A stretch of 64,000 bases of DNA, from the NCBI RefSeq assembly GCF_014189535.1, contig NZ_CP050308.1:2145501-2209500 (forward strand). Direction: 5' to 3'. The notes beneath the pieces are model-generated. The model ran no database searches and had not been told where the DNA came from. It saw only the letters and a list, made by a program, of their open reading frames with translations. Source of the stretch: Rhizobium lusitanum. Lineage in GTDB: Bacteria; Pseudomonadota; Alphaproteobacteria; Rhizobiales; Rhizobiaceae. Positions 50,204 through 64,000 of the stretch are shown one piece after another (positions within the stretch are counted from its first letter, which is position 1; each line of letters opens with the position of its first letter). A program made the position numbers and the translations under genes.

Positions 50204-51085
50204 TTATTGCGTGTCCATATGCTGCTGCGGACGCCAACGGGTGATGCGATTTTCCACCAGCGTCATCACGTACTCCGCACCGAGCGTCACCAGCATCACC
50301 AGGATGATCGCGGCATAGAGGCCGGCCGCATCGTAGGTGCCCTTGGCGATCGAGATCAGGTAGCCGATACCGGCCAGCGAACCGACGAACTCGCCGACGA
50401 TCGCACCAATGATGGCGAACGAGAAGGAGACGTGCAGGCTGGCGAAGATCCAGCTCATCGCCGACGGCAGGATCACGTTGCGGGTGACCTGCCAGTTCGA
50501 GGCACCGAGGATGCGGGCATTGGCGATCATGTTGCGGTCCGCTTCGCGCACGCCCTGGAAGGCATTGGCGAACACGACGAAAAACACCATGATGAAGGCC
50601 AGAGCCACCTTGGACGGCAGGCCAAGGCCCATGATCATCACAAAGATCGGCGCCAACACGACGCGCGGAATCGAGTTGATCGCCTTGATGTAGATCGACA
50701 GGATATCGGAGGCCAGCCTATTGCGGCCGAGCGCCACGCCGACCAGCACGCCGGTGACCGAGCCGATGACGAAGCCGATCAGCGCTTCTTCCATGGTGAC
50801 GCCGAGGTGATACCAGAGCGAACCATTTTCGGTGCCTTCGGTGACCCATTCGTAGAGCCTATAGCCGATAGCGGTCGGGCTGGAATAGAAGAAGGGGTCG
50901 ATCCAGTGCAGGTCGGAGGCCAGCTGCCAGACACCGAGGATCGCCACGAGGATCGCGACCTGCCAGAAGACGACGACGAATTTGCGCCGGGTGATCGCCT
51001 TCAGTGCCGCTGCTTCTATTTCCACGTCCGAGGTGCCGGCGCGGAAGATCGGCGCATTGCCTGTTTCAAGGGCTGTATTTGCCAT
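50204..51085 (-). CDS. ABC transporter permease (SsuC/TauC/ThiX type)
   Basis: A 293-residue inner-membrane subunit with six helices and the EAA loop (GASNWQVTRNVILPSAMSWI, about 205-224) that docks on the ATPase. Belongs to the nitrate/sulfonate/pyrimidine importer class. Start MANTALETG at 51085 is preceded by GGGAGGATTGATC; the frame is open to 51172. Third gene of the operon. Confidence 0.92.
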   Translation of the reverse strand: MANTALETGNAPIFRAGTSDVEIEAAALKAITRRKFVVVFWQVAILVAILGVWQLASDLHWIDPFFYSSPTAIGYRLYEWVTEGTENGSLWYHLGVTMEEALIGFVIGSVTGVLVGVALGRNRLASDILSIYIKAINSIPRVVLAPIFVMIMGLGLPSKVALAFIMVFFVVFANAFQGVREADRNMIANARILGASNWQVTRNVILPSAMSWIFASLHVSFSFAIIGAIVGEFVGSLAGIGYLISIAKGTYDAAGLYAAIILVMLVTLGAEYVMTLVENRITRWRPQQHMDTQ

Positions 51086-51099
51086 GATCAATCCTCCCC

Positions 51100-51918
51100 T
51101 TATGCCGCTTGCGCAGCGCGGCGATAGCTGGTCTCGACCTCTTCGCGGAGGTCGTCCCAGATCGTCTTGCAATAATCGATGAAGGTCTGCTCGTAGCGGA
51201 TCTCCGAGACGACACGCGGGCGCGGCAGGTCGATCTTGTAGACCGACTTCACCGTGGCGGGACCCGCCGTCAGCACATAGACCTTGTCGGCCAGCGCCAC
51301 GGCCTCTTCGAGGTCGTGGGTGACGAACACCACCGACGCCTGACGCTCGGCCCAGAGCTTCAGCAACTCCTCGTGCATGACCGTGCGGGTCTGCACGTCC
51401 AGCGCCGAGAATGGCTCGTCCATCAGCAGGATTTCCGGCTCGTTGATGAAGGTCTGCGCCAGCGAAACGCGCTTGCGCATGCCGCCGGAGAGCTGGTGCG
51501 GATAGTGATGCAGAAACTTCGTCAGGCCAACGCGGGCGAGCCAGTCTTTGGCGGTCGCCTCCGCTTCCGCTTTGGACTTGCCGCGGAACAGCGGGCCGGA
51601 CATGACGTTGTCGATGACGTTCTTCCAGGGAAAGAGCGCATCCGTCTGGAAGACGAAGCCGACGCGCGGATCGATGCCGTCGACCGGGCCGCCCATCAGG
51701 CGAACTTCGCCGGCGCTCGGCTTGGCAAGGCCGGTGACGAGGTTGAGCGTCGTCGACTTGCCGCAGCCGGTCGGTCCAACGACGGCGACGAATTCGCCGC
51801 GCTCGACAGTCATATTGAAATCGCGCAGCGCCGTCAGCGATTTGCCGGTCGGTGAGACGAAACGGCGGCTGACATTGATGAGCTCGATCGCCGGTGTCCG
51901 GCGTCCATCCTGTTGCAT
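51100..51918 (-). CDS. ABC transporter ATP-binding protein
   Basis: A 272-residue ATPase: Walker A GPTGCGKST near 50, Q-loop FVFQTDALFPWKNV, signature LSGGMRKRVSLAQ, Walker B ILLMDEPFSALD, and H-loop VVFVTHDLEEAV. Energises the neighbouring permease for import. Start MQQDGRR at 51918 fits the family better than the open extension to 51957. Confidence 0.93.
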   Translation of the reverse strand: MQQDGRRTPAIELINVSRRFVSPTGKSLTALRDFNMTVERGEFVAVVGPTGCGKSTTLNLVTGLAKPSAGEVRLMGGPVDGIDPRVGFVFQTDALFPWKNVIDNVMSGPLFRGKSKAEAEATAKDWLARVGLTKFLHHYPHQLSGGMRKRVSLAQTFINEPEILLMDEPFSALDVQTRTVMHEELLKLWAERQASVVFVTHDLEEAVALADKVYVLTAGPATVKSVYKIDLPRPRVVSEIRYEQTFIDYCKTIWDDLREEVETSYRRAAQAA

Positions 51919-52009
51919 GGTGCTGATCCTGACGCGTGCCTTTGGGCGTGCACGCAAAAGCCCGTGAGATACCGCCTCCGGTTCCGGCCGGAGGCAGCGC
52001 GATGACTGC

Positions 52010-53023
52010 TTACTTGACGTTCTTGACGAACTCGGTCGTGTAGGTCTTCGACAGGTCGATCGTCTTGCCCTTGACGTTCTTCGAGAACGCGGAGAGCACG
52101 GCGAGAACCGTCTTCGGACCGTCTTCCGGCATCACGCCATCCGGCGTGAACATTTCCTTGCCGGCGTCGAGAGCCTTGATGTAGCCGTCCTTGTCGCCAA
52201 CGTAGAAATCCTTCGGCATCTTGTCGGCAATCTCGGCGGCGGAATGCGTATTGATGAACCGCAGCGTCTTGACGAAGGCGTTGGCGAGCTTCTGTACGTC
52301 TTCCTTATGAGCATCGACCCAGGCCGCGTCCATGTAGAGCGAGGCTGCCGGATAGGTGCCGCCGAGTGCTTCCTCGGTGCCCTTCAGGGTCCGCAAGTCG
52401 ACGAGAATCGAAGCTTCACCGGTCTTCAGCATGCGCGAAATCGTCGGCTCGGTGGTCATGCCGGCCTGGATGGCGTCCTGCTGCATGGCGGCGATGAAGG
52501 TCTGGCCGGCACCGACCGGAACCGTGGAGATATCAGACGGCGAAAGGCCGTGCTTCGACGCCATATAGAGCGTCAGGAAGTTGGTGGACGAGCCGAGGCC
52601 GGTAACACCGAGGCTCTTGCCCTTCAGGTCCGCGAAGGACTTGAGTTCCGGATGCTTGGTCGAGACCAGCTCGACTTCGCCGGGCGCCTGGCTGAACTGC
52701 ACGACGGATTTGATGAACTTGCCCTTGGCCTGCAGGTCGACACAGTGATCGTAGAAGCCGACGACACCCTGAACAGCGCCAGCCAGCAGCTGGTTTTCGG
52801 CATCGACGCCGGCAGACTCGTTGAGAAGATCGACCTCGAGGCCTTCATCCTTGAAGTAACCGAGGGATTCGGCAAGCTTGGCCGGCAGATAGATCTGCTT
52901 TTCGTAACCGCCCACCATAATGGAAATCTTGTCGGCGGCATGCGCTGCCGTCGCACTGAGCGAGGCGGCTGATATGACGAGGGAAAGGGCTACGGTATGA
53001 AAAAGCGTGCGCGATGAACGCAT
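52010..53023 (-). CDS. ABC transporter substrate-binding protein (NMT1/SsuA type)
   Basis: A 337-residue periplasmic protein with a signal peptide (1-29, cut after AAHA) and the NMT1/THI5-like fold: YLPAKLAESLGYFKDEGLEV, SFADLKGKSLGVTGLGSSTN, and AGMTTEPTISRML. The class binds sulfonates, nitrate, aromatic acids or thiamine precursors. No thiamine riboswitch is seen upstream, which argues against the thiamine group. First gene of the three-gene importer operon. Confidence 0.9.
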   Translation of the reverse strand: MRSSRTLFHTVALSLVISAASLSATAAHAADKISIMVGGYEKQIYLPAKLAESLGYFKDEGLEVDLLNESAGVDAENQLLAGAVQGVVGFYDHCVDLQAKGKFIKSVVQFSQAPGEVELVSTKHPELKSFADLKGKSLGVTGLGSSTNFLTLYMASKHGLSPSDISTVPVGAGQTFIAAMQQDAIQAGMTTEPTISRMLKTGEASILVDLRTLKGTEEALGGTYPAASLYMDAAWVDAHKEDVQKLANAFVKTLRFINTHSAAEIADKMPKDFYVGDKDGYIKALDAGKEMFTPDGVMPEDGPKTVLAVLSAFSKNVKGKTIDLSKTYTTEFVKNVK

Positions 53024-53778: not shown

Positions 53779-54237
53779 GTGAGTGCAAAAGTACCAAATC
53801 CGATTGACGCCTATGTCGGTTCACGCGTGCGAATGCGGCGGCTTATGCTTGGCATGAGCCAGGAACGGCTCGCCGATCAGATCGGCGTCACGTTTCAGCA
53901 GGTGCAAAAATACGAAAAAGGCACCAATCGCATCGGCGCCAGCCGGCTGCAGGCGATTGCGAGCGTTCTGGCCGTGCCGGTCGCCTTCTTCTTCCAGCAA
54001 GACAACACACAACCACTGGCGACGGACGGCCTCGGCGCCATCAGCGGCCTTGAGGATCTCTCAGACTTTCTGACGTCCAAGGAAGGCCTGAGCCTCAACA
54101 AGGCCTTCATGAAGATCAACGATCCGAGCGTCCGCCAATCCGTGTTGATGCTCATCAAGTCGCTGGCCAACACCTCCGAGCCGGCACTTGTACGTGCACC
54201 GCAGGCAACCGAAATCCCGTTCGGCCTGCGGAACTGA
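53779..54237 (+). CDS. XRE-family helix-turn-helix regulator
   Basis: A 152-residue regulator with HTH (MSQERLADQIGVTFQQVQKY at about 26-45, then EKGTNRIGASRLQAIASVL) and a short helical tail. GTG start with GAGGAG nine bases upstream. This type is frequent in rhizobia, including regulators of growth and metabolism. Same strand as the downstream RiPP-like genes but 318 bp away and separated by hairpins. Confidence 0.9.
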   Translation: MSAKVPNPIDAYVGSRVRMRRLMLGMSQERLADQIGVTFQQVQKYEKGTNRIGASRLQAIASVLAVPVAFFFQQDNTQPLATDGLGAISGLEDLSDFLTSKEGLSLNKAFMKINDPSVRQSVLMLIKSLANTSEPALVRAPQATEIPFGLRN

Positions 54238-54555: not shown

Positions 54556-56505
54556 ATGAATTTCAGGCTACTGACATTCGGAGACCTGCGTCTAGTCGAC
54601 GAAACAGGTTCAGCTGTGCCTTTTCCGGAAAAGGGCCTGCTATCCACCTGTTTCCTGCTGACGGGTTCCTCGCCGCACAAATCCCGCACGGAACTTGCTG
54701 AATTCCTGTGGGGCGACATTCCCCTCGACAAGGCGCTTGCCAATTTGCGGCAGACGCTATCGCGCGTCAAAAGCCGCCAAGATGAGCTCGGGATCGAGCT
54801 GCTCCTGATCGAGCAGGCGACCGTGAGCGTGAACATCGGTGCGTTCACCAGCGATCTTGCGCTGCTCGATGCCGCCTCGCAAACCAGCCCTCACGTGGCG
54901 TTGGGCGAATTGCTGCAACTCGGCCGCTGGGATTTTCTCGCCCGCACCGAAGTCATCGGCGGCCCTGCGCGCATGTGGCTGCGCGCGCAGCGCGACCGGG
55001 TCAGGACGCAGATCTTGACGACGCTTCGCGACGCTATTGCAGCTATGAGTGAGGATGCCGAAACCACCATCGTCAAGGAGGCGGCCCTGCGGCTATTCGA
55101 GGCCTATCCCGAGGACGAGGCTGTCTACCAGATCCTCGGGCAGACCTATGCCGGCGAACCCCAACTTGAGAACGCCCGAAACGTTTTCGAGAACCGCCGG
55201 AAATACCGCTGGGGCGAACTGCCGGTCGATCCCGACCCGCAGACGCTCGGCGTGGCCCGGCGACTGTTCGAACGCCAGCGTGGCATTGCGCCACAAGCCC
55301 GACAGGAGGCAAGACCACGGGCTGAAGTCGCTCCACCGGCGCTGCGCGGGCCCCCGAGGCTAACTTTGCTGCCACCGGTGAACCTCGCGAGGCACCACCA
55401 GGCGGCCATCTTTCTCTCCTCGATGCTGCTGGAAGACATCACTGTCGGACTTTGCGTGCTGAAGACCGTGACGATGGTGGCGCACTATACAGCAGAAAAG
55501 ATCGCGCTTGATCTGGACCGGGGCGCGACGCTGGAAAGGCACGGCATCAACTACGTGCTGGACACGAGGCTCAGCTTCGATGGCAATACCTATTGGCTTT
55601 TCACGCAGCTGATCTATGCCGGCAATGACGAAGTGATCTGGGCGGAACGCTTCAGCATGGAAGCGCGGGATCTGCCGCGCCAACATCGCGAAATCACCCA
55701 GCGCATCGTGGCGTCCATCGCCAGCTATATCGAGCGCAACGAGTTTACCCGCGACTATTTCGAGCGCAACCCCGAAGCCTATCATCACTATCTGCTCGGC
55801 CAGCGCCATCTGAAAAGCCTCGACCTGCCGGACATTCGCCGCGCCCGAAAAGAATTTCAGACATCCCTGAAGGAAAACCCCTATTTCTCGCCGGCGCTGA
55901 GCGGGGTGGCACGCACCTATCATCTCGAATGGTTGGTGACGGCGCAGGGCGACGCAGGATTGTTGAAGCGTGCCGAGGAGGAGGCCGGAAAGGCGATTAC
56001 CACCGGCCAGGACATCGCTGGCGGTTACCATCAATTCGGCGTCATCAAGCTCTACCAGGGAGCCTTCGATGAAAGCATCGAGGTCTTCGAGCTTGCCGAA
56101 ACCATCAGCCCGCATCATGCCGACGCCATCGCAGACTATGCGGATACGTTGATTCACGCGTCGAGGCCAAGGGACGGCCTGGCCAAGATCAGGAGCGCAA
56201 TCGAGCTTAATCCAATAAGCCCGGATCTCTATTTCTGGACCGCTGCGGGCGCCAGCTTCTATCTGGAGCGCTATGAAGACGCGAGCGACTATATCGCACG
56301 TATGGCCGACCCTTCTCAGGCTGCGCGACTTGCTGCCGCAAGTGCCGCCATGTCGGGTAACATGCGTAAAGCCAAGACTTTAGTGCGAAAAGTCAAGGAA
56401 ACATATCCAGATTTTGATATTGATACTTGGCTCTCTATTGTTCCTTTGCGAGAACAATGGCAGAAAGACTTATATCGAGAAGGGCTCCAGCGAGCTGGAT
56501 TTTAA
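54556..56505 (+). CDS. SARP-like regulator with BTAD, TolB-N-like and TPR regions
   Basis: A 649-residue cytoplasmic regulator. About 1-100 is an OmpR/SARP-type winged-helix region (RTELAEFLWGDIPLDKALAN then RQTLSRVK); about 105-240 is a BTAD helical domain (FLARTEVIGGPARMWLRAQR, YPEDEAVYQILGQTY); about 270-390 resembles the TolB N-terminal domain of adenylate-cyclase-type regulators; 410 to the end is TPR repeats. ATG 54556 is chosen because it begins the wHTH directly. It ends 79 bp before the candidate RiPP precursor and is probably its pathway activator. Confidence 0.85.
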   Translation: MNFRLLTFGDLRLVDETGSAVPFPEKGLLSTCFLLTGSSPHKSRTELAEFLWGDIPLDKALANLRQTLSRVKSRQDELGIELLLIEQATVSVNIGAFTSDLALLDAASQTSPHVALGELLQLGRWDFLARTEVIGGPARMWLRAQRDRVRTQILTTLRDAIAAMSEDAETTIVKEAALRLFEAYPEDEAVYQILGQTYAGEPQLENARNVFENRRKYRWGELPVDPDPQTLGVARRLFERQRGIAPQARQEARPRAEVAPPALRGPPRLTLLPPVNLARHHQAAIFLSSMLLEDITVGLCVLKTVTMVAHYTAEKIALDLDRGATLERHGINYVLDTRLSFDGNTYWLFTQLIYAGNDEVIWAERFSMEARDLPRQHREITQRIVASIASYIERNEFTRDYFERNPEAYHHYLLGQRHLKSLDLPDIRRARKEFQTSLKENPYFSPALSGVARTYHLEWLVTAQGDAGLLKRAEEEAGKAITTGQDIAGGYHQFGVIKLYQGAFDESIEVFELAETISPHHADAIADYADTLIHASRPRDGLAKIRSAIELNPISPDLYFWTAAGASFYLERYEDASDYIARMADPSQAARLAAASAAMSGNMRKAKTLVRKVKETYPDFDIDTWLSIVPLREQWQKDLYREGLQRAGF

Positions 56506-56584
56506 ATTATGTCACATTAAAACTGCGTATGGATTCTCGGAAATTCAATCCGGGTTTCTGAGCGAACAGGGAAAGAGATTGAAG

Positions 56585-56854
56585 ATGGCAAACTTTGTAG
56601 TTTTTGGCATTCCTGGCGATTCCCAACTTTATCTTGCCGATATCCGCGCAGGTACCATATCTCCGCTCAACGTACCGGCAGGCAGCGATCTCGGTGTAGC
56701 CGATCAATTGCGCAATGCTGGAGCCACCATCATCAAGGGCGTCAATCTGGCCATTACTGTCGGCAGCACTGCAAGCGCCGGCTCCGGCAGGTTGGACGAC
56801 GCTGCCGCCGGCGGCAGGCTGGACGAAAGTACCCCCAGCGGCCGGCTGGATTGA
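56585..56854 (+). CDS. Candidate RiPP precursor peptide with three GRLD repeats
   Basis: An 89-residue protein directly before YcaO and TfuA genes. The first 65 or so residues (MANFVVFGIPGDSQLYLADI onward, with VPAGSDLGVADQLRNAGATI) look like a folded leader; the C-terminus consists of GRLDDAAAG, GRLDESTPS and GRLD, a 9-residue period matched by a 27-bp DNA repeat, and ends right after the last Asp. No Cys is present, so thiazole formation is excluded; thioamidation of backbone or oxazoline at Ser/Thr remain possible. The leader/core split is inference. I do not know a described peptide with this core. Confidence 0.75.
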   Translation: MANFVVFGIPGDSQLYLADIRAGTISPLNVPAGSDLGVADQLRNAGATIIKGVNLAITVGSTASAGSGRLDDAAAGGRLDESTPSGRLD

Positions 56855-56870
56855 AGAGCCGAACACCGCC

Positions 56871-58136
56871 TTGGCAATAATCGCCGCGCCATTGGCTTCC
56901 TGCCCGCCGGAACTTTTCGACAAGGTTTCCGGTGGGACATTGCCGGTCACCGCCTCTCCTTATTCGGATCGCACATGTTCCGCCGAGGAGACTTTTCGGC
57001 GCATCGAGCCCTGCCTCGCGACCCACGGCGTCACCCGCCTCGGCCGCCTGACGGGGCTCGACAAGATCGGCATCCCCGTCTGGCAGGCGGTCAGCCCAAA
57101 CGCCCGTTCGATCGTCATCAACAATGGCAAGGGCATCACCGATCTCGACGCCAAGGTCTCGGCGGCCATGGAGGCGCTGGAGCGGACCGTCGCCGGCGCA
57201 CCTGCCCTCGCGACTGTCATCACCAGCCGCCGGCAATTGCTGGCCGAAGGGTATCACGCCGATCCGCTGCCCTCGCTTATCGCCAAGGGGCAGACCGATG
57301 TCGCTGATGACGAGCAGATTGCCTGGGCCGAGGGTCATGATCTCATTGCCGGCAGGCCCGCCTGGATCCCTTTCAACGCGGCAACACTCGACCGCACCAT
57401 CCGCAATCCACGCTTCTGGCAATCCTCCGACGGCCTCGCCTCCGGCAACAATCTTACCGAGGCCAGCCTGCACGGTCTGCTTGAACGTATCGAGCGCGAT
57501 GCCGAGGTGCTCTGGGAGATTTCCGAGCCGAAACTGCGGATGGCTGCTTGCATCGACCCGGCCTCGTTCGCCGATCCGGTGCTGGATGGGCTGATCGCCA
57601 AGATCACGTCCGCGGACCTGACGCTGCGGCTCTTTGATGTCACCAGCGATATCGGCATACCCGTTATCGTCGCCCTTCTCGGCCCCAGGGAAATCGCCCA
57701 GGCAAGGCGCGTCCGCTACCTCGATGTCACGATCGGCAGTGGCGCCCATCCCTCGCCGGTGCGGGCGGCGATCCGCGCCGTGACGGAAGCCGCGCAATCG
57801 CGCCTAACCTTCATCAGCGGCGCCCGCGACGATATCCGGCCCGAAAATTTTACCCGCGAATTGCCAGAGAGCATCCGCCGTTGCTTCGATGCCGTCCCGA
57901 GGGCGGCAACACCATCGAATGCGGCCTTGCCGGAAGGAGCCGAGGGGCTGTTGCAACTGACGATCGACCGTTTGCGGCGGGCGGGCATCAACTCCGCCAT
58001 CGCGGTTTCGCTCGGCGACCCCTCGCTTCCCTTTGCCGTCGCCAAGCTCGTGGTGCCGCAACTGGAAAATCCGGACGGAGACCGCAAGCGCCGCTTCGGC
58101 TATCGCGCCATCTCGAAGACGTTGCAACTGCTATGA
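56871..58136 (+). CDS. YcaO-domain cyclodehydratase/thioamide synthetase
   Basis: ATP-dependent enzyme that phosphorylates a peptide amide oxygen, leading to azolines or, with TfuA, thioamides. Of about 421 residues, the ATP-site motifs SAAMEALERT near 105, LTEASLHGLLERIERDAE near 200, and RLTFISGARDDI near 318 are visible. The start is uncertain: no ATG exists, TTG 56871 or TTG 56892 are likely, and the frame is open back to 56715 through the precursor repeats. It ends in ATGA with tfuA. The C-terminus (ISKTLQLL) is not proline-rich, unlike azoline-forming YcaO proteins of the microcin type. Confidence 0.9.
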   Translation: MAIIAAPLASCPPELFDKVSGGTLPVTASPYSDRTCSAEETFRRIEPCLATHGVTRLGRLTGLDKIGIPVWQAVSPNARSIVINNGKGITDLDAKVSAAMEALERTVAGAPALATVITSRRQLLAEGYHADPLPSLIAKGQTDVADDEQIAWAEGHDLIAGRPAWIPFNAATLDRTIRNPRFWQSSDGLASGNNLTEASLHGLLERIERDAEVLWEISEPKLRMAACIDPASFADPVLDGLIAKITSADLTLRLFDVTSDIGIPVIVALLGPREIAQARRVRYLDVTIGSGAHPSPVRAAIRAVTEAAQSRLTFISGARDDIRPENFTRELPESIRRCFDAVPRAATPSNAALPEGAEGLLQLTIDRLRRAGINSAIAVSLGDPSLPFAVAKLVVPQLENPDGDRKRRFGYRAISKTLQLL

Positions 58137-58858
58137 AGATCCTGTTCGTCGGCCCGACGCTTCCCGATGCTGCCGAGATCAGCGATCCCGGCATCACGCT
58201 GCGTCCGCCGGCACAGAAGGGCGACATCGTCAAAGCCCTCGAAGACGGCGTTAATGCCATCGGTCTGATCGACGGTTTTTTCGAGAATGTCGCGCCCGTC
58301 TGGCACAAGGAAATCCTGTTTGCCCTGTCGAGGGGCGTCCACATCTATGGCGCCGCCAGCATGGGAGCGCTGCGCGCCGCCGAATGCGCCGCCTTCGGCA
58401 TGATCGGCGTCGGCCGCATCTTCGAGGCCTATGCCAGTGGAGCGCTTGCCGATGACTCCGCCGTGGCGCAAATCCATGCACCCGCCGAACTCGGATATCG
58501 TCCGCTGAGCGAGCCGCTGGTCAATGTGCAGGCGACACTGCAAGCACTCGCCGAGACCGGTGCAATCGGCGAGCCCGAGCGAGCGGCACTTCAGGCTTGC
58601 GCCGAGACCATGTTCTTCAAATCGCTCACCTATCGTTCGGTGGCAGAGGCCGCAGACCTGCCGGACCCGGCGCGACGGCCGGCAATTGCCGATCTTTTGC
58701 GCGCCAATACGGTCAACCAGAAGCGCAGCGACGCGCTGCAATTGCTGCGCGCGCTTGCCGACTGCCCCGACGAGCGCCGGCAACCACCGCGCGACTGGAC
58801 CTTTCAGACCAACAGTTTGTGGCATTCCGCCTTTCACCACCTTGAAATTGCATTGTAA
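58133..58858 (+). CDS. TfuA-family protein
   Basis: A 241-residue partner of YcaO. Motifs: ILFVGPTLPDA, RPPAQKGDIVKAL, IGLIDGFFENVAPVWHKEIL, GVHIYGAASMGALRAAECA and RIFEAYASGALADDSAVAQIH. TfuA was first seen in the trifolitoxin locus of Rhizobium; in archaea YcaO with TfuA makes the thioglycine of methyl-coenzyme M reductase, and TfuA is thought to deliver sulphide. The four-base overlap with ycaO indicates coupled synthesis. Confidence 0.93.
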   Translation: MKILFVGPTLPDAAEISDPGITLRPPAQKGDIVKALEDGVNAIGLIDGFFENVAPVWHKEILFALSRGVHIYGAASMGALRAAECAAFGMIGVGRIFEAYASGALADDSAVAQIHAPAELGYRPLSEPLVNVQATLQALAETGAIGEPERAALQACAETMFFKSLTYRSVAEAADLPDPARRPAIADLLRANTVNQKRSDALQLLRALADCPDERRQPPRDWTFQTNSLWHSAFHHLEIAL

Positions 58859-58991: not shown

Positions 58992-59234
58992 ATGACAGCA
59001 ATACTTCCTATCGAAATGGCAGGCCACGATTCGGACTCTCTGAAGGAACTGGCATCCATCGCACGACTGATCACCTATGCACGCCAGAGTGCGAAGAGCA
59101 TGGAGGCCGAGTTTCCGGTCTGGTGCCTGGATCTCGCGCTCGGCGCCGTACTGCAGGAAATGTACGCAAATGGCCTGCAAATGCCGCTCTTCGACGAGGG
59201 CATGGACAAGGCGAACATGGCCGTCGCGCATTAA
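58992..59234 (+). CDS. Hypothetical 80-residue protein
   Basis: I do not recognise it. ATG 58992 has AGGGGC six to eleven bases ahead; the frame is open to 58935 without a site. It is helical (LKELASIARLITYARQSAKS, then LDLALGAVLQEMYANGLQM) with a single Cys. It lies 133 bp after tfuA on the same strand and could be part of the cluster or independent; a terminator follows. Confidence 0.6.
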   Translation: MTAILPIEMAGHDSDSLKELASIARLITYARQSAKSMEAEFPVWCLDLALGAVLQEMYANGLQMPLFDEGMDKANMAVAH

Positions 59235-59326: not shown

Positions 59327-60007
59327 TCAGCTGCTCCGGTGCGGCTGAACGCCGGCCACGAAGATCGCAATGCATTGCCGCAAATGCCGCAGACGGGTTT
59401 CGCGGTCCGGCCAGTCGTTCGTCTTGCCGGGAAGCGTGATCATTGCGCCGAAGATCATGTTCATCAGCATGCGAGCGCCGCTTTCGGCATCGGCAATCTC
59501 GATCAGGCCGCGCTGCTGCTGCACATCCAGCCAGCCCGCCAGCATTTTTCGCGACTGCTCAGCACCCTGCGTTCGCAACAGCGCCGCTATCTCGGGAAAT
59601 CGCTGCGCCTCGCTCATCACGAAATGAATGAAGGCCTCGCGGTCACGTTCGGCCGCTTCATCGATATCGATCATGAAAATCTGTTCGAGCGCCTCGGTGA
59701 GCGGCAGATTTTCCTTGAGGTCGCGCGGCAGGGCCAGCATCGAGGCACGGTGCTCGGCCATGAGCGCCATGAAAAGCTCTGTCTTGCTCGAGAACAATCG
59801 GTAGAGGGTCTGCTTCGAAATCTTGCATCGCGCGGCCACGAGATCCGTGGTCGTGCCGCCATAACCGAGCTCATGAAATGTCGCGCGGGCCGCCGCGATG
59901 ATCTCCGCCCGCCTTGCATCGTCGCTCACCGTTTTCGGACGGCCGCGCTTGCGGGGAACAACAGCCTGCTCCGCATCGCTCGCCCTTGCTTTCATCCGCA
60001 CTTCCAT
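59327..60007 (-). CDS. TetR-family regulator of the RND efflux genes
   Basis: A 226-residue repressor: basic N-terminal segment (VPRKRGRPKT), HTH (ELGYGGTTTDLVAARCKISK then QTLYRLFSSK) and a helical drug-binding domain with AefR-like C-terminus. Divergent from the RND adaptor gene with the promoter/operator between. A second ATG at 59995 (MKARASD) is an alternative start. Confidence 0.92.
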   Translation of the reverse strand: MEVRMKARASDAEQAVVPRKRGRPKTVSDDARRAEIIAAARATFHELGYGGTTTDLVAARCKISKQTLYRLFSSKTELFMALMAEHRASMLALPRDLKENLPLTEALEQIFMIDIDEAAERDREAFIHFVMSEAQRFPEIAALLRTQGAEQSRKMLAGWLDVQQQRGLIEIADAESGARMLMNMIFGAMITLPGKTNDWPDRETRLRHLRQCIAIFVAGVQPHRSS

Positions 60008-60032
60008 CTTAACCTAAAAAAGCCAAATGAGA

Positions 60033-60080
60033 TTGACATTTACGGTGGTACAAATATTTTCTGTACTACTTGGTACTGTA
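60033..60080 (+). promoter_or_regulatory. Promoter and likely TetR operator of the RND pump genes
   Basis: TTGACA (60033-60038), 16-bp spacer and TATTTT (60055-60060) form a good sigma-70 promoter. Repeated GTAC motifs (GGTAC at 60047, GTAC at 60063, GGTAC at 60071) give overlapping inverted repeats over the -10 region, as expected for a TetR site. Confidence 0.65.
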
Positions 60081-60089
60081 AATAAGGCA

Positions 60090-61409
60090 ATGGGAAATAG
60101 CAACGTGGGAAAGCTCGCCTCTTCTACCCCTGTATCCGCACATCCAGCGCGAAACGGACGTTTTCCGGCCATCCGGATCTCGCTCCTCGTCACAGGGATC
60201 GCCGCCACGATGCTGCTGGCCGGCTGCAACGAGCAGAAGGCTGCGCAGGGTAGCGCCCCTGCCATCAAGACTGAGGTCAGCACCATGACGCTGCATCCTC
60301 AATCCGTGGCGATCACCGCCCAATTGCCCGGCCGCACCAGCGCCTACCTGATCGCCGAAGTCAGGCCGCAGGTCGGCGGCATCATTCGCAGTCGCAATTT
60401 CAAGGAAGGCAGCGAGGTCGCCGCCGGCGACGTGCTCTACGAAATCGACCCGGCCTCCTATCAGGCATCCTACGACAGCGCCACCGCCGCCTTGCAGAAG
60501 GCTGAGGGCGCCATACCGAGCGCGCAGTCGAAAGTGGATCGCTATAAGAGCCTCACGGCGCAGGACGCGGTGAGCAAGCAGAATCTCGACGATGCACTGT
60601 CCACCCTGGCGCAGGCAAAGGCCGACGTGGCGTCCGCCAAGGCGGCCCTGGAAACCGCACGCATCAACCTCGATTACACCAAGATGCGCGCGCCGATCGC
60701 CGGTCGTGTCGACGCCTCGGCAGTGACCGTCGGCGCACTCGTCACCGCCGATCAGACGACAGCGCTCACCACCATCCGCCAGCTCGATCCGATCAATGTC
60801 GATGTCACCCAATCGAGCACGAACCTCCTGGCGTTTCGCCGCGCCATCGCGGACGGCCGGTTGAAGACCAGCGGCGACAACGTCTCCGTCCACCTGATGC
60901 TCGAAGACGGCACCCAGTACAAGGAAACCGGCAAGCTGGAATTCGCGGAAGCCGCGGTCGCCGAAACCGTCGGCACCATCACCGTACGCGCCGTCTTCCC
61001 CAATCCGGACCGCCTGCTGCTGCCCGGCATGTATGTTCGCGCCACCATCCAGGAGGGCGTTGCCGAAAACAGCTTCCTCGTGCCGCAGCGCGCCGTCACC
61101 CGCAACACCAAGGGCGAACCGATAGCAATGTTCGTCACCGCCGATGGCAAGGTTCAGCAGCGGGTACTCAAGGTACAGCGGAACATCGGCAATAGCTGGC
61201 TGGTGAACGAGGGCATGACCGACGGCGATCGCGTCATCGTCGAAGGCGGCCAGCGCGTGCGCGACGGCCAGGATGTCAACGCCACCGCAGTCACCATCGA
61301 CGACGCGACCGGCGAGGTGAAGCAGGCCGCTGCCGACAGCAAGCCCGCCGAACAGCAAGCCGAGCTGGAAAAGACCGATACCAAAGCCGCCTCCGGCGCC
61401 CAGAAGTGA
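60090..61409 (+). CDS. RND efflux periplasmic adaptor (AcrA/MexA type)
   Basis: A 439-residue lipoprotein adaptor: signal peptide with lipobox LLAGC (Cys near 48), barrel-sandwich hybrid domain (EVRPQVGGIIRSRNFKEGSE), alpha-hairpin coiled coil (about 145-205), and beta-barrel/membrane-proximal domains (APIAGRVDASAVTVGALV, RLLLPGMYVRATIQEG). A Glu/Ala/Lys-rich tail is unusual but common in rhizobia. Joined to the pump gene by an 8-bp gap. Confidence 0.93.
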   Translation: MGNSNVGKLASSTPVSAHPARNGRFPAIRISLLVTGIAATMLLAGCNEQKAAQGSAPAIKTEVSTMTLHPQSVAITAQLPGRTSAYLIAEVRPQVGGIIRSRNFKEGSEVAAGDVLYEIDPASYQASYDSATAALQKAEGAIPSAQSKVDRYKSLTAQDAVSKQNLDDALSTLAQAKADVASAKAALETARINLDYTKMRAPIAGRVDASAVTVGALVTADQTTALTTIRQLDPINVDVTQSSTNLLAFRRAIADGRLKTSGDNVSVHLMLEDGTQYKETGKLEFAEAAVAETVGTITVRAVFPNPDRLLLPGMYVRATIQEGVAENSFLVPQRAVTRNTKGEPIAMFVTADGKVQQRVLKVQRNIGNSWLVNEGMTDGDRVIVEGGQRVRDGQDVNATAVTIDDATGEVKQAAADSKPAEQQAELEKTDTKAASGAQK

Positions 61410-61417
61410 GATAAGCG

Positions 61418-64000
61418 ATGTCGCGTTTTTTCATCGACAGGCCGATCTTTGCCTGGGTCATCGCCATCGTCATCATGCTTGCCGGCGCGCTGTCGATCCT
61501 GACGCTATCGATCTCGCAATATCCGCAGATCGCCCCGACGACTGTGAGCATCAGCGCGAACTATTCGGGCGCTGATGCCGCAACCGTCGAGAACTCGGTG
61601 ACCAAGGTCATCGAGCAGGGCATGACCGGTATCGACAATCTCGACTATATGACGTCGACCTCGACCTCGACGGGCCAGGCGTCGATCTCGTTGACCTTCA
61701 CCAACAAGGCCGATCCCGACGTTGCGCAGATGCAGGTGCAGAACAAGCTGCAGCTCGTCACCGCGCAATTGCCGCAAACGGTGCAGTCGACAGGTATCGT
61801 CGTTTCCAAGTCGACATCGAACTTCCTGATGGTCGTCGGCTTCGTGTCGACCGACGGCAAGCTCAACTCCAACGACCTCGCCGACTATGTGTCCAGCACG
61901 CTGAACGACACGCTGAAGCGTATCGAAGGCGTCGGCAACACCCAGATCTTCGGCGCCGGCTATGCCATGCGTATCTGGGTCGATCCGGACAAGCTCGCCA
62001 AATACCAGTTGATGGTGAGCGACGTCACCACGGCGATCCAGGCGCAGAATTCGCAGGTCTCGGCCGGCCAGCTCGGTGCCTTGCCGCAGCGCAAGGGCCA
62101 GCAGCTCAACGCGACGGTCACGGCCAAGAGCCGTCTTCAGACGCCGGAGCAGTTCAACAACATCATCCTGAAGAGCCTGCCCGATGGCTCGCTCGTGCGC
62201 CTCAACGATGTCGCGACCGCCGAGCTGGGCGCCTCGTCCTACACCACCTCGAGTACCTATAACGGTCATCCCTCGGCCGGTCTCGCCGTCATGCTCGCCT
62301 CGGGCGCCAACGCCATCAACACGGCCGAGGCCGTGCGGTCGACCATCGACAGCGTGAAGCAGACGCTGCCGCCGAACGTCGAAATCGTCTATCCCTACGA
62401 CACGACGCCCTTCGTCAAGCTGTCGATCGAGGATGTGGTCAAGACGCTGTTCGAAGCCATCGTGCTTGTCTTCATCGTCATGTTCGTCTTCCTGCAGAAC
62501 ATCCGCGCGACCTTGATCCCGACGCTTGCCGTCCCCGTCGTCCTGCTCGGTACCTTCGGCGTGCTGTCGCTGTTCGGCTATTCGATTAATACCCTCACCA
62601 TGTTCGGCATGGTGCTGGCGATCGGCCTGTTGGTGGACGATGCGATCGTCGTTGTCGAAAACGTCGAACGCGTGATGGAGGAAGAAGGTCTGTCGCCGCG
62701 TGAGGCGACGATCAAGTCGATGCAGGAAATCACCGGCGCCCTAATCGGCATAGCCACGGTGCTGTCGGCCGTGTTCATCCCGATGGCCTTCTTCTCGGGC
62801 TCGGTCGGCGTCATCTACCGCCAGTTCTCGGTGACGATCGTCTCAGCAATGGTGCTTTCGGTCATCGTCGCCCTCATCCTGACGCCGGCACTCTGCGCCA
62901 CGATCTTGAAGGCGCCCGAGCATGGATCGAAGAAACGCGGCGCCTTTGGCTGGTTCAACCGCAATTTCGAGCGCGCGACGCTTCGTTATCAGAGCAGCAT
63001 TCACGGCATGATACGCTGGAGTGCCGTCTTCCTGCTGATCTTCGTGTTGATCGGCGGCGCCGTCGCTTACCTGTTCAATCGCCTGCCGAGCTCATTCCTG
63101 CCGGATGAAGACCAGGGCATCCTGCTGACCGCGATCCAGCTCCCTCCGGGCGCTGCGGAGTCCCGAACTTGGACTGTGCTCAATCAGGTGAAGGACTATT
63201 ATCTCAACAACGAGAAGGACTATGTCGAAGGCGCCTTCGCCGTTGCCGGCTTCGGTTTCAGCGGCCAGGGTCAGAATGTCGGTATCGTTTTCGTCCGGCT
63301 GAAGGACTTCGCGGAGCGTTCAACCCCGCAATCGAAGGCGCAAGCAATCGCCGGCCGCGCCATGGGCGCCTTCTCCAAGATCAAGGACGGTAGCGTCTTT
63401 GCGCTGGCTCCGCCAGCCATTCCCGGTTTCGGTAGTTCGAGTGGTTTCGACTTCTTCATCAAGGACATCAACGGCGCCGGCCACGCCAGCCTGATCGCCG
63501 CCCGCAATCAGTTGCTGGGCGCCGCTGGCAAGAGTGGGAAACTGTTCGGCACTCGCCCGAACGGCCAGGAGGACACGCCGCAATATTCGGTCAATATCGA
63601 TCAGGAGAAGGCGAGCGCGCTGAATATCAGCCTGGCGGATATCGACTCCACGCTGTCGACCGCCTGGGGCGGCACCTATGTCAACGACTTCATCGATCGT
63701 GGCCGCGTCAAGCCCGTCTACGTCCAGGCCTACCAGGATTTCCGCATGCAGCCGGAGGATTTCGGACGCTGGTATATCCGCAATTCCGGCGGCGACATGG
63801 TGCCGTTCTCGGCCTTCTCCAGCGGCGAATGGACCTATGGTTCGCCGCGTCTGGAACGCTATAACGGCTCGTCTGCCGTCGAAATCCAGGGCGCTGCCGC
63901 TCCCGGCGTCTCCTCCGGCGATGCCATGAACGAGATCGACCAGATCATGGCGACCCTGCCGCCCGGCTTCAGCCATGAATGGACCAGCCTGTCGGCCCAG
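61418..64000 (+). CDS. RND efflux pump inner-membrane subunit (AcrB/HAE1 type), cut by window edge
   Basis: The proton-driven trimeric drug exporter; 861 codons are visible of about 1,050, no stop. Motifs: [20 protein letters not shown] at the first helix, [20 protein letters not shown], the helix-4 proton-relay pair in [18 protein letters not shown], and the second repeat start [20 protein letters not shown]. Helices 4-6 and the TolC docking domain pattern fit HAE1. It pairs with the adaptor upstream; the outer-membrane factor is not in the window. Confidence 0.95.

Follow-up and report, generated by a model that had tools for sequence, protein, structure and literature searches.

We found that a short gene at 56585–56854 in a 64,000-nucleotide stretch of Rhizobium lusitanum DNA (NZ_CP050308.1 of assembly GCF_014189535.1, positions 2,145,501–2,209,500 of the forward strand; hereafter the window, in whose coordinates positions are given) is best explained as encoding the precursor of a ribosomally synthesized and post-translationally modified peptide (RiPP), which is probably modified by the YcaO–TfuA enzyme pair encoded after it and cleaved to short peptides. 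As a prediction from sequence, a thioamidated RiPP is well supported. Three features of TfuA–YcaO RiPPs are present, namely a YcaO with its ATP motifs, a TfuA partner and a co-occurring precursor with a conserved leader and core motif. The precursor gene, p, is one of six plus-strand genes that lie over 5 kb in the order h, S, p, Y, T and m. An earlier note on this DNA had read 54556..58858 as a compact RiPP-like cluster with repeated cores, an interpretation that is partly supported overall; the genes it named are present, but it missed the linked genes h (53779–54237) and m (58992–59234).

The precursor gene runs from an ATG at 56585 to a stop codon at 56852–56854 and encodes 89 residues, with an in-frame TTG at 56579 as a possible alternative start. 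A leader of residues 1–67 (56585–56785; alignments A1 and A2) is followed by three GRLD units, at residues 68–71 (56786–56797), 77–80 (56813–56824) and 86–89 (56840–56851), the last of which forms the C-terminus. The coordinates thus bear out the short reading frame with three terminal GRLD units at 9-residue spacing that the earlier note had described, and two or more GRLD units arose in only 4 of 200,000 shuffles of the peptide. The ycaO gene Y (56871–58136; PF02624, 2.3e-64) has a probable TTG start at 56871 and a stop codon at 58134–58136, and the tfuA gene T (58133–58858; PF07812, 1.4e-43) starts with an ATG at 58133, so that the two genes share the four bases ATGA (58133–58136), as had been noticed. 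The mechanically called ycaO open reading frame (ORF) opens at 56715, within the precursor gene; in our judgement TTG 56871 is the likelier start. Between 56715 and 56870 the 27-base repeat is also read in this overlapping frame as a repeated peptide, PPAAGWT, which is probably a by-product of the core repeat.

The earlier assignment of the enzymes to the thioamide-installing kind holds, in that both profile and structure-sequence matches place them nearest to the type that thioamidates the McrA glycine. YcaO matches the MJ1094 structure (PDB 6pe3) at 7.8e-36 and TfuA matches PDB 6xp8 at 5.5e-31. The three YcaO ATP motifs, SAAMEALER, NLTEASLHGLLERIERD and TEAAQSR, are present and align with 6pe3. 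The window's YcaO has a Met, a His and an Ala of the kind described as preferred in TfuA-associated YcaO proteins (PMC8120280), although assigning them to the ATP motifs is our own reading. A second type of ycaO–tfuA locus was also seen (loci L105, L106 and L107), with a regulator about 30% identical to P0003 and no recognised precursor of this family.

The precursor belongs to no Pfam family and has only a 10.7-bit match to an unrelated enzyme in NCBIfam. A protein search with it listed 22 proteins, the window's own included, and an alignment search that scored 8000 candidates found 288, of which 120 were listed. From loci and database proteins (filtered by length and motif, distant forms included) we collected 213 distinct precursors, of up to 151 residues versus 89 here. 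Judged from these sequences, the majority of relatives have a single unit at the C-terminus, G-x-phi-[D/E]-G, in forms such as GHVDG, GHYDG, GFMDG, GVFDG and GHLDG. The exact C-terminus G-x-x-[D/E]-G occurs in 148/213, and the unit pattern lies near the C-terminus in 189/213, with Gly first in 188, Y/F/L/V/M third in 187 and the fourth position, limited by the pattern to D or E, occupied by D in 170 and by E in 19. With single-unit relatives found, repeats were dropped as a defining trait. The leader is strongly conserved, with dN/dS of 0.11–0.16, and the first 62 codons of the gene are under purifying selection (median dN/dS 0.16; 89 pairs, 14 sequences). Longer distant precursors of the MSKMMILGVKGEAGLW... 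type, carrying SGHYYKTP or SGHVYRTP blocks, were seen beside their own ycaO–tfuA genes (L092:6286–6825, L103:6994–7347 and, divergently oriented, in L082 and L085).

Where units are repeated, their sequence appears to be held constant by selection. Multi-unit members of the window's clade carry 2–7 units at 8–9-residue spacing, with RLD, RMD, RFD, KFD, QFD or RSD as the repeated core, and a single x-phi pair is used throughout all units in 26/26 repeat precursors. The pattern used to choose these precursors prescribes R/K/Q, L/M/F/S and D/E and leaves sameness within a protein free; when units were shuffled among precursors, uniformity was reached in at most 9 of the 26 (20,000 trials, with relatedness inflating the contrast). 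Core codon pairs encode the same residue in 148 of 150 cases, 67 of those 148 with different codons, and in the linkers, compared over the four positions that follow each unit, 48 of 104 pairs agree. The window's own units are written AGG TTG GAC, AGG CTG GAC and CGG CTG GAT. Because the codons differ while the residues agree, unit identity is kept by selection on the peptide, and recent copying alone does not account for it. At least two separate origins of repeats can be read from the sequences: Shinella shows a separate expansion in 6/6 loci, with two or three GGFMD or GGYMD units at 7-residue spacing. Further repeat forms are GVLDGDDKKAASGVLDG (12 residues) and SGHYYKTP blocks (23 residues, L103), which may be independent too. 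The proposal that the GRLD repeats are cores therefore stands as far as the units are under amino-acid-level selection, but the repeats do not define the family and the Gly is not kept in every copy, so that the constant part is x-phi-[D/E].

We then consider how firmly the precursor is tied to its putative partners. In the 80 named loci (the 80 best among 86, all located by way of the precursor and possibly lacking records close to the window) S lies directly upstream of p in 80/80, and it does so in 40/40 fetched regions, likewise found through the precursor. Since the named loci were found in this way, they say nothing on regulators without a precursor. The ycaO and tfuA genes follow the precursor in 59 of the 80 (layout h>S>p>Y>T), 14 show no more than regulator and precursor across the flanks that were fetched, six have a divergent tfuA and no ycaO, and one has a second, divergent precursor-like match. 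The expectation that homologues would lie beside YcaO–TfuA and vary in repeat number held in part: TfuA is present in every genome with a precursor, but most homologues have a single unit and 21/80 named loci lack an adjacent ycaO. Across the genus the precursor occurs in 138/148 genomes and TfuA in 142/148; all 138 precursor-positive genomes have TfuA, and 6/6 TfuA-less genomes lack the precursor. In the sample of the family Rhizobiaceae the precursor occurs in 78/394 genomes (20/109 genera) and TfuA in 123/394, with TfuA in 78/78 of the precursor-positive genomes. The earlier note had counted homologues that lack the repeats or are unlinked to YcaO–TfuA as evidence against its reading. Taken literally that evidence exists, because the repeats would be a derived state and the enzymes could act from another locus.

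The dispersed layouts take several forms. In one genome (G016) precursor, YcaO and TfuA each occur once, with the precursor on another contig, and p is likewise apart from Y and T in G147. In G109 and G110, precursor, TfuA and full-length YcaO lie at three separate loci; two YcaO-matching fragments on one contig of the latter (G110:C5:101413–103708) are probably a decayed gene. In G098, G032 and G115 tfuA lies beside S–p, with a lone ycaO flanked by h and m at a different locus, and each has a second complete pair. Seven genomes (G005, G007, G023, G090, G103, G113 and G140) hold an h–Y–T–m locus without S–p, with DNA 80–87% identical to the h–S junction of R. leguminosarum-type clusters (five reference loci), and one recognised, unlinked precursor each. 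Five of the seven (L095, L096, L099, L100 and L104) also retain pieces of the regulator end or precursor, with differing breakpoints; L104 6880–7516 and the h–ycaO gaps of L095–L100 hold relics of a deleted regulator–precursor segment. The ycaO and tfuA genes of these relic genomes remain open, with a dN/dS of 0.20 versus 0.19 in 14 clustered copies. As far as sequences go, this suggests that the enzymes act on unlinked precursors. Among these dispersed systems, a single enzyme set is found only in G016, G109 and, bar its two extra fragments, G110.

The 140 loci L049–L188 include the same genomes fetched twice, and their counts (84/33/12/10/1) are not independent. We therefore give the layouts by distinct regulator: 73 of 109 are clustered, 29 stand alone and seven have a divergent tfuA. 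On the regulator tree (FastTree, long branches flagged), which cannot tell separation from re-joining, the layouts require six changes versus a shuffled mean of 32.4, and the stand-alone forms make up one large clade plus L062 and L166. L082 and L085 were counted as clustered though their ycaO–tfuA belong to a second, divergent precursor, and the boundary is uncertain. Patterns of the C-terminus and of the leader were used to look for hidden precursors in 13 ycaO–tfuA loci without a recognised regulator. Nothing was found in eight; L092 and L103 hold the distant precursors, and L104 holds a relic ending SGHVDG. Single pattern matches in L096, L098 and L103 look like chance and were set aside.

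The regulator S (54556–56505, ATG at 54556) is a 649-residue SARP-like protein with C-terminal tetratricopeptide repeats (TPR). Its earlier description as a SARP regulator needs qualifying: the TPR match is above the Pfam cut-off (PF14559, 29.8 versus 25 bits), but the BTAD match falls just under (PF03704, 21.4 versus 22.1 bits), and the label thus comes partly from a reading of the N-terminus. In three clades whose core does not vary, the TPR half (residues 455–649, 55918–56502) evolves more slowly than any other part of the regulator (0.37–0.56 of the whole-protein rate). In Shinella, with two core forms, it evolves at 0.73 and the middle region at 0.62 of that rate, and in the window's clade, which has differing cores, no part evolves faster than the TPR half (1.2). 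Within this clade, the TPR p-distance relative to that of residues 1–440 is 0.52 for same-core pairs (8 pairs) and 1.45 for different-core pairs (83 pairs), with a permutation p of 0.0002 over 14 related tips, kinship being ignored. For multi-unit tips only (nine tips; 4 and 32 pairs) the values are 0.69 versus 1.19 (p=0.0054). The leader also tracks the core (p=0.0024) and the middle region is borderline (0.051); the HTH gene, wHTH, BTAD, YcaO, TfuA and m gave no significant association in the window's clade (0.10–0.96).

The boundaries of this signal were examined along the locus. In different-core pairs, third-position divergence jumps at about residue 451 of the regulator, the start of the TPR region, stays raised through the precursor and most of ycaO, and is near baseline in tfuA; over the whole aligned ORF the YcaO permutation is not significant (0.22), though its windows rise. 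The TPR half, the precursor and most of ycaO thus form a variable, deeply diverged cassette, with the TPR half as its left part, that probably moves by recombination. TPR dN/dS is hardly raised (0.044/0.613 same-core versus 0.147/1.654 different-core), since synonymous divergence rises as well, from 0.61 to 1.65, the latter being near saturation; positive selection on the TPR is therefore unsupported, and deep allelic divergence or recombination accounts for the signal. Beyond the window's clade, support for co-variation is mixed. At matched total distance (0.02–0.2), same-core pairs give 0.32–0.34 and 24 different-core pairs 0.81–0.85, but the 27 different-core pairs there represent few events: 17 involve L142, and 14 of these show less divergence in the TPR than in the N-terminal part; among the other ten the TPR is more divergent in six and less in four. 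The four stand-alone loci L064–L067, where ycaO is not linked, behave according to the phi residue, with TPR distances of 0.144–0.174 against N-terminal distances of 0.094–0.125 for HL versus F-type pairs, and 0.046 against 0.111 for HF versus RF. In the HVD/HFD clade the sliding-window differences are slight.

This co-variation suggests, without proving, a receptor–peptide pair resembling the RRNPP systems. It is possible, though we would put it at less than even, that the mature peptide binds the TPR of the upstream regulator and that a specificity cassette made up of TPR, precursor and YcaO moves as one; such a receptor would add a function to the preferred explanation and is not an alternative chemistry. 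It would explain both the left edge of the cassette at the TPR boundary and the constant S–p pairing, which includes the 21 named loci without a neighbouring ycaO, and it agrees with a TPR that is slowest where the core is constant and diverges with it elsewhere, outside the window's clade included. Yet hitchhiking with a precursor swap would also yield much of the pattern, because TPR and core are physically adjacent. The hardly raised dN/dS, the third-position divergence on the other side of the core in ycaO, the weight of L142 among few outside events, the slight differences in the HVD/HFD clade and p-values that ignore the kinship of the tips all count against it. The fuller proposal of a Gram-negative RiPP pheromone, in which thioamidated tri- to pentapeptides are sensed by the SARP TPR, a TPR–precursor–YcaO 'dialect' cassette is exchanged jointly and the enzymes sometimes sit on another replicon, seems rather unlikely as a whole.

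Other roles for the product were weighed on the same data. TfuA is named after the trifolitoxin locus, and a short antibacterial peptide, bacteriocin-like as trifolitoxin and with narrow targets, could use repeated cores to raise its yield and would fit core types that differ between lineages. We regard it as unlikely: no recurring immunity, export or protease gene was noticed by eye in the ORF lists of nine loci and part of 20, nor by BLAST of the window's flanks, and presence in most species genomes of the genus seems, in our judgement, too general for a narrow bacteriocin. An uncleaved small protein, functional as a whole (for example as a ligand or co-regulator of the SARP) with its C-terminal tail thioamidated as in McrA, would account for the strongly conserved leader, for a unit that forms the very C-terminus in the majority of precursors and for enzymes closest to the McrA type; independent duplications confined to the unit, with linkers that vary, are easier to explain by release, and we consider this reading improbable. 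That the repeat is a chance or non-coding artefact is suggested by its also reading as repeats in the overlapping ycaO frame, but this is already contradicted by 213 distinct family members, by purifying selection and by the shuffles, and its probability is negligible.

The preferred explanation, a modified and cleaved precursor, can be drawn out as follows. A leader of about 60–67 residues would be recognised by YcaO–TfuA, a backbone thioamide would most likely be put within or next to every x-phi-[D/E] unit (three RLD units in this precursor), and short identical peptides would be freed by proteases encoded outside the locus; in split genomes unlinked enzymes would act on the precursor. The most likely role would be that of a self-made regulatory peptide with the SARP–TPR protein as its dedicated partner, and a PraR-like repressor may control the cluster. 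Several results weigh against this explanation. The profile scores are below their cut-offs, with 202.6 bits versus 365 for YcaO in its nearest group, TIGR03266 (McrA-glycine thioamidation), and 173.2 versus 235.2 bits for TfuA in NF033432. The Gly of the unit is replaced by I, T, N, A or S in some middle copies, which argues against an obligatory thioglycine there in every unit. The precursor–TfuA co-occurrence in the family (Fisher 1e-50) ignores kinship, and TfuA is also found in 4 genomes of the genus and 45 of the family that lack this precursor, so that other substrates exist. One or two further ycaO–tfuA pairs are present in each of the seven relic genomes and in G147, G098, G032 and G115, which leaves the partner of the precursor ambiguous there; the dN/dS of the orphan enzymes may mostly predate the deletions, and other substrates or other partner pairs may also be compatible with their conservation. 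No protease or signal peptide was recognised in an inspection by eye only.

The outer genes of the cluster were examined in turn. Gene h, an XRE repressor gene (HTH_3, PF01381 4.7e-14; plus strand), is PraR-like, being 55% identical to the presumed PraR in the genome matching R. johnstonii 3841, and precedes the regulator in 59/80 named loci. Gene m encodes a small helical-looking protein without a Pfam or NCBIfam family; of the 59 named loci with a clustered layout, 44 have it recognisably downstream of tfuA. PraR is a repressor inactivated by the anti-repressor CinS (PMC4149787), and m matches a CinS hidden Markov model faintly (6.8 bits over 41 residues; 1/1000 shuffles as high). As many as 56 of 8017 ORFs score as high, 54 of them at >=31.7 bits, which we take as m genes, and two at 7.3–7.8; the hhalign probability is 3.8%, and a search of the genome matching R. 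johnstonii 3841 with m did not bring up CinS at E<=1. An h–m repressor/anti-repressor pair is thus a lead only. Further PraR-like repressors were seen in the two genomes searched (G061:C4:335456, G061:C6:652866, G000:C4:670044, G000:C5:148177 and G000:C1:206869), with a TfuA gene at 653900 close to the one at G061:C6:652866.

An ABC-type uptake set lies upstream (50204–53023) and a TetR/RND efflux set downstream (59327–64000). The earlier remark that no exporter is adjacent must be qualified by the TetR gene and RND pump set from 59327 onward, yet these look like neighbours and not cluster members. Matches above 50% identity occur at 21/140 loci for TetR and an RND subunit and at 19/140 for two ABC genes, and because they are confined to the window's subclade we rejected these genes as parts of the cluster.

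TfuA-related clusters of Rhizobium are already known as predictions (PMC8120280; PMC10434180), more than 500 of them (PMC8120280), and the TfuA–YcaO thioamidated RiPPs known in 2021 were all from Actinobacteria (PMC8120280). These predicted clusters have the same enzyme pair and genus as here, but the precursor types named, berninamycin-like and Nif11-like (PMC8120280; PMC10434180), differ from this family. In open-licence PubMed Central (PMC) texts we found no description of the precursor family, its core, the dispersed layouts or the cassette; supplements may overlap. For many of the predicted clusters, a defined precursor family that has a very short C-terminal core and is carried by most species of the genus would supply a testable product. 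If the dispersed layouts are functional, RiPP genes can spread over a genome and escape cluster-based mining, and if the TPR co-variation reflects binding, a link would emerge between RiPP chemistry and quorum sensing by peptides in Gram-negative bacteria that live with plants, and with it a novel type of peptide signal in bacteria.

Among known systems, the McrA thioglycine enzymes (MJ1094, 6pe3; 6xp8) are the nearest solved homologues by sequence, but their substrate is methyl-CoM reductase and not an 89-residue precursor, and the scores here lie below the equivalog cut-offs. As regards the trifolitoxin family, the precursor here contains no Cys among its 89 residues, as the earlier note had observed. 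The PraR/CinS pair of Rhizobium leguminosarum (PMC4149787) is echoed by a PraR-like h and the faint profile match of m, with no autoinducer synthase in this cluster. RRNPP systems are described by five criteria that include a TPR receptor of 250–500 residues, a propeptide of 10–100 residues, adjacent genes and secretion by SEC or PptAB (PMC10075063), and RRNPP propeptides with several pheromone copies are known (PMC10075063; PMC11343458). The present locus resembles them in its TPR protein, its propeptide size and the direct adjacency of the two genes, and differs in a SARP-like regulator larger than that receptor range, in the Gram-negative host, in the predicted YcaO–TfuA modification and in that no signal peptide was seen by eye. 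A further parallel is that of the thiovarsolins (varAYTO, Streptomyces varsoviensis), for which varA, varY and varT suffice for the thioamidated product, a tripeptide, and whose precursors range from no repeat up to five (PMC6511847). They share with this family the YcaO–TfuA pair, the repeated short core and the range from no repeat to repeats. They differ in phylum and in their APR core, no APR/GPR type being found among the repeat cores here; the x-phi-[D/E] core, the SARP–TPR pairing and the dispersed layouts mark this Rhizobiaceae family.

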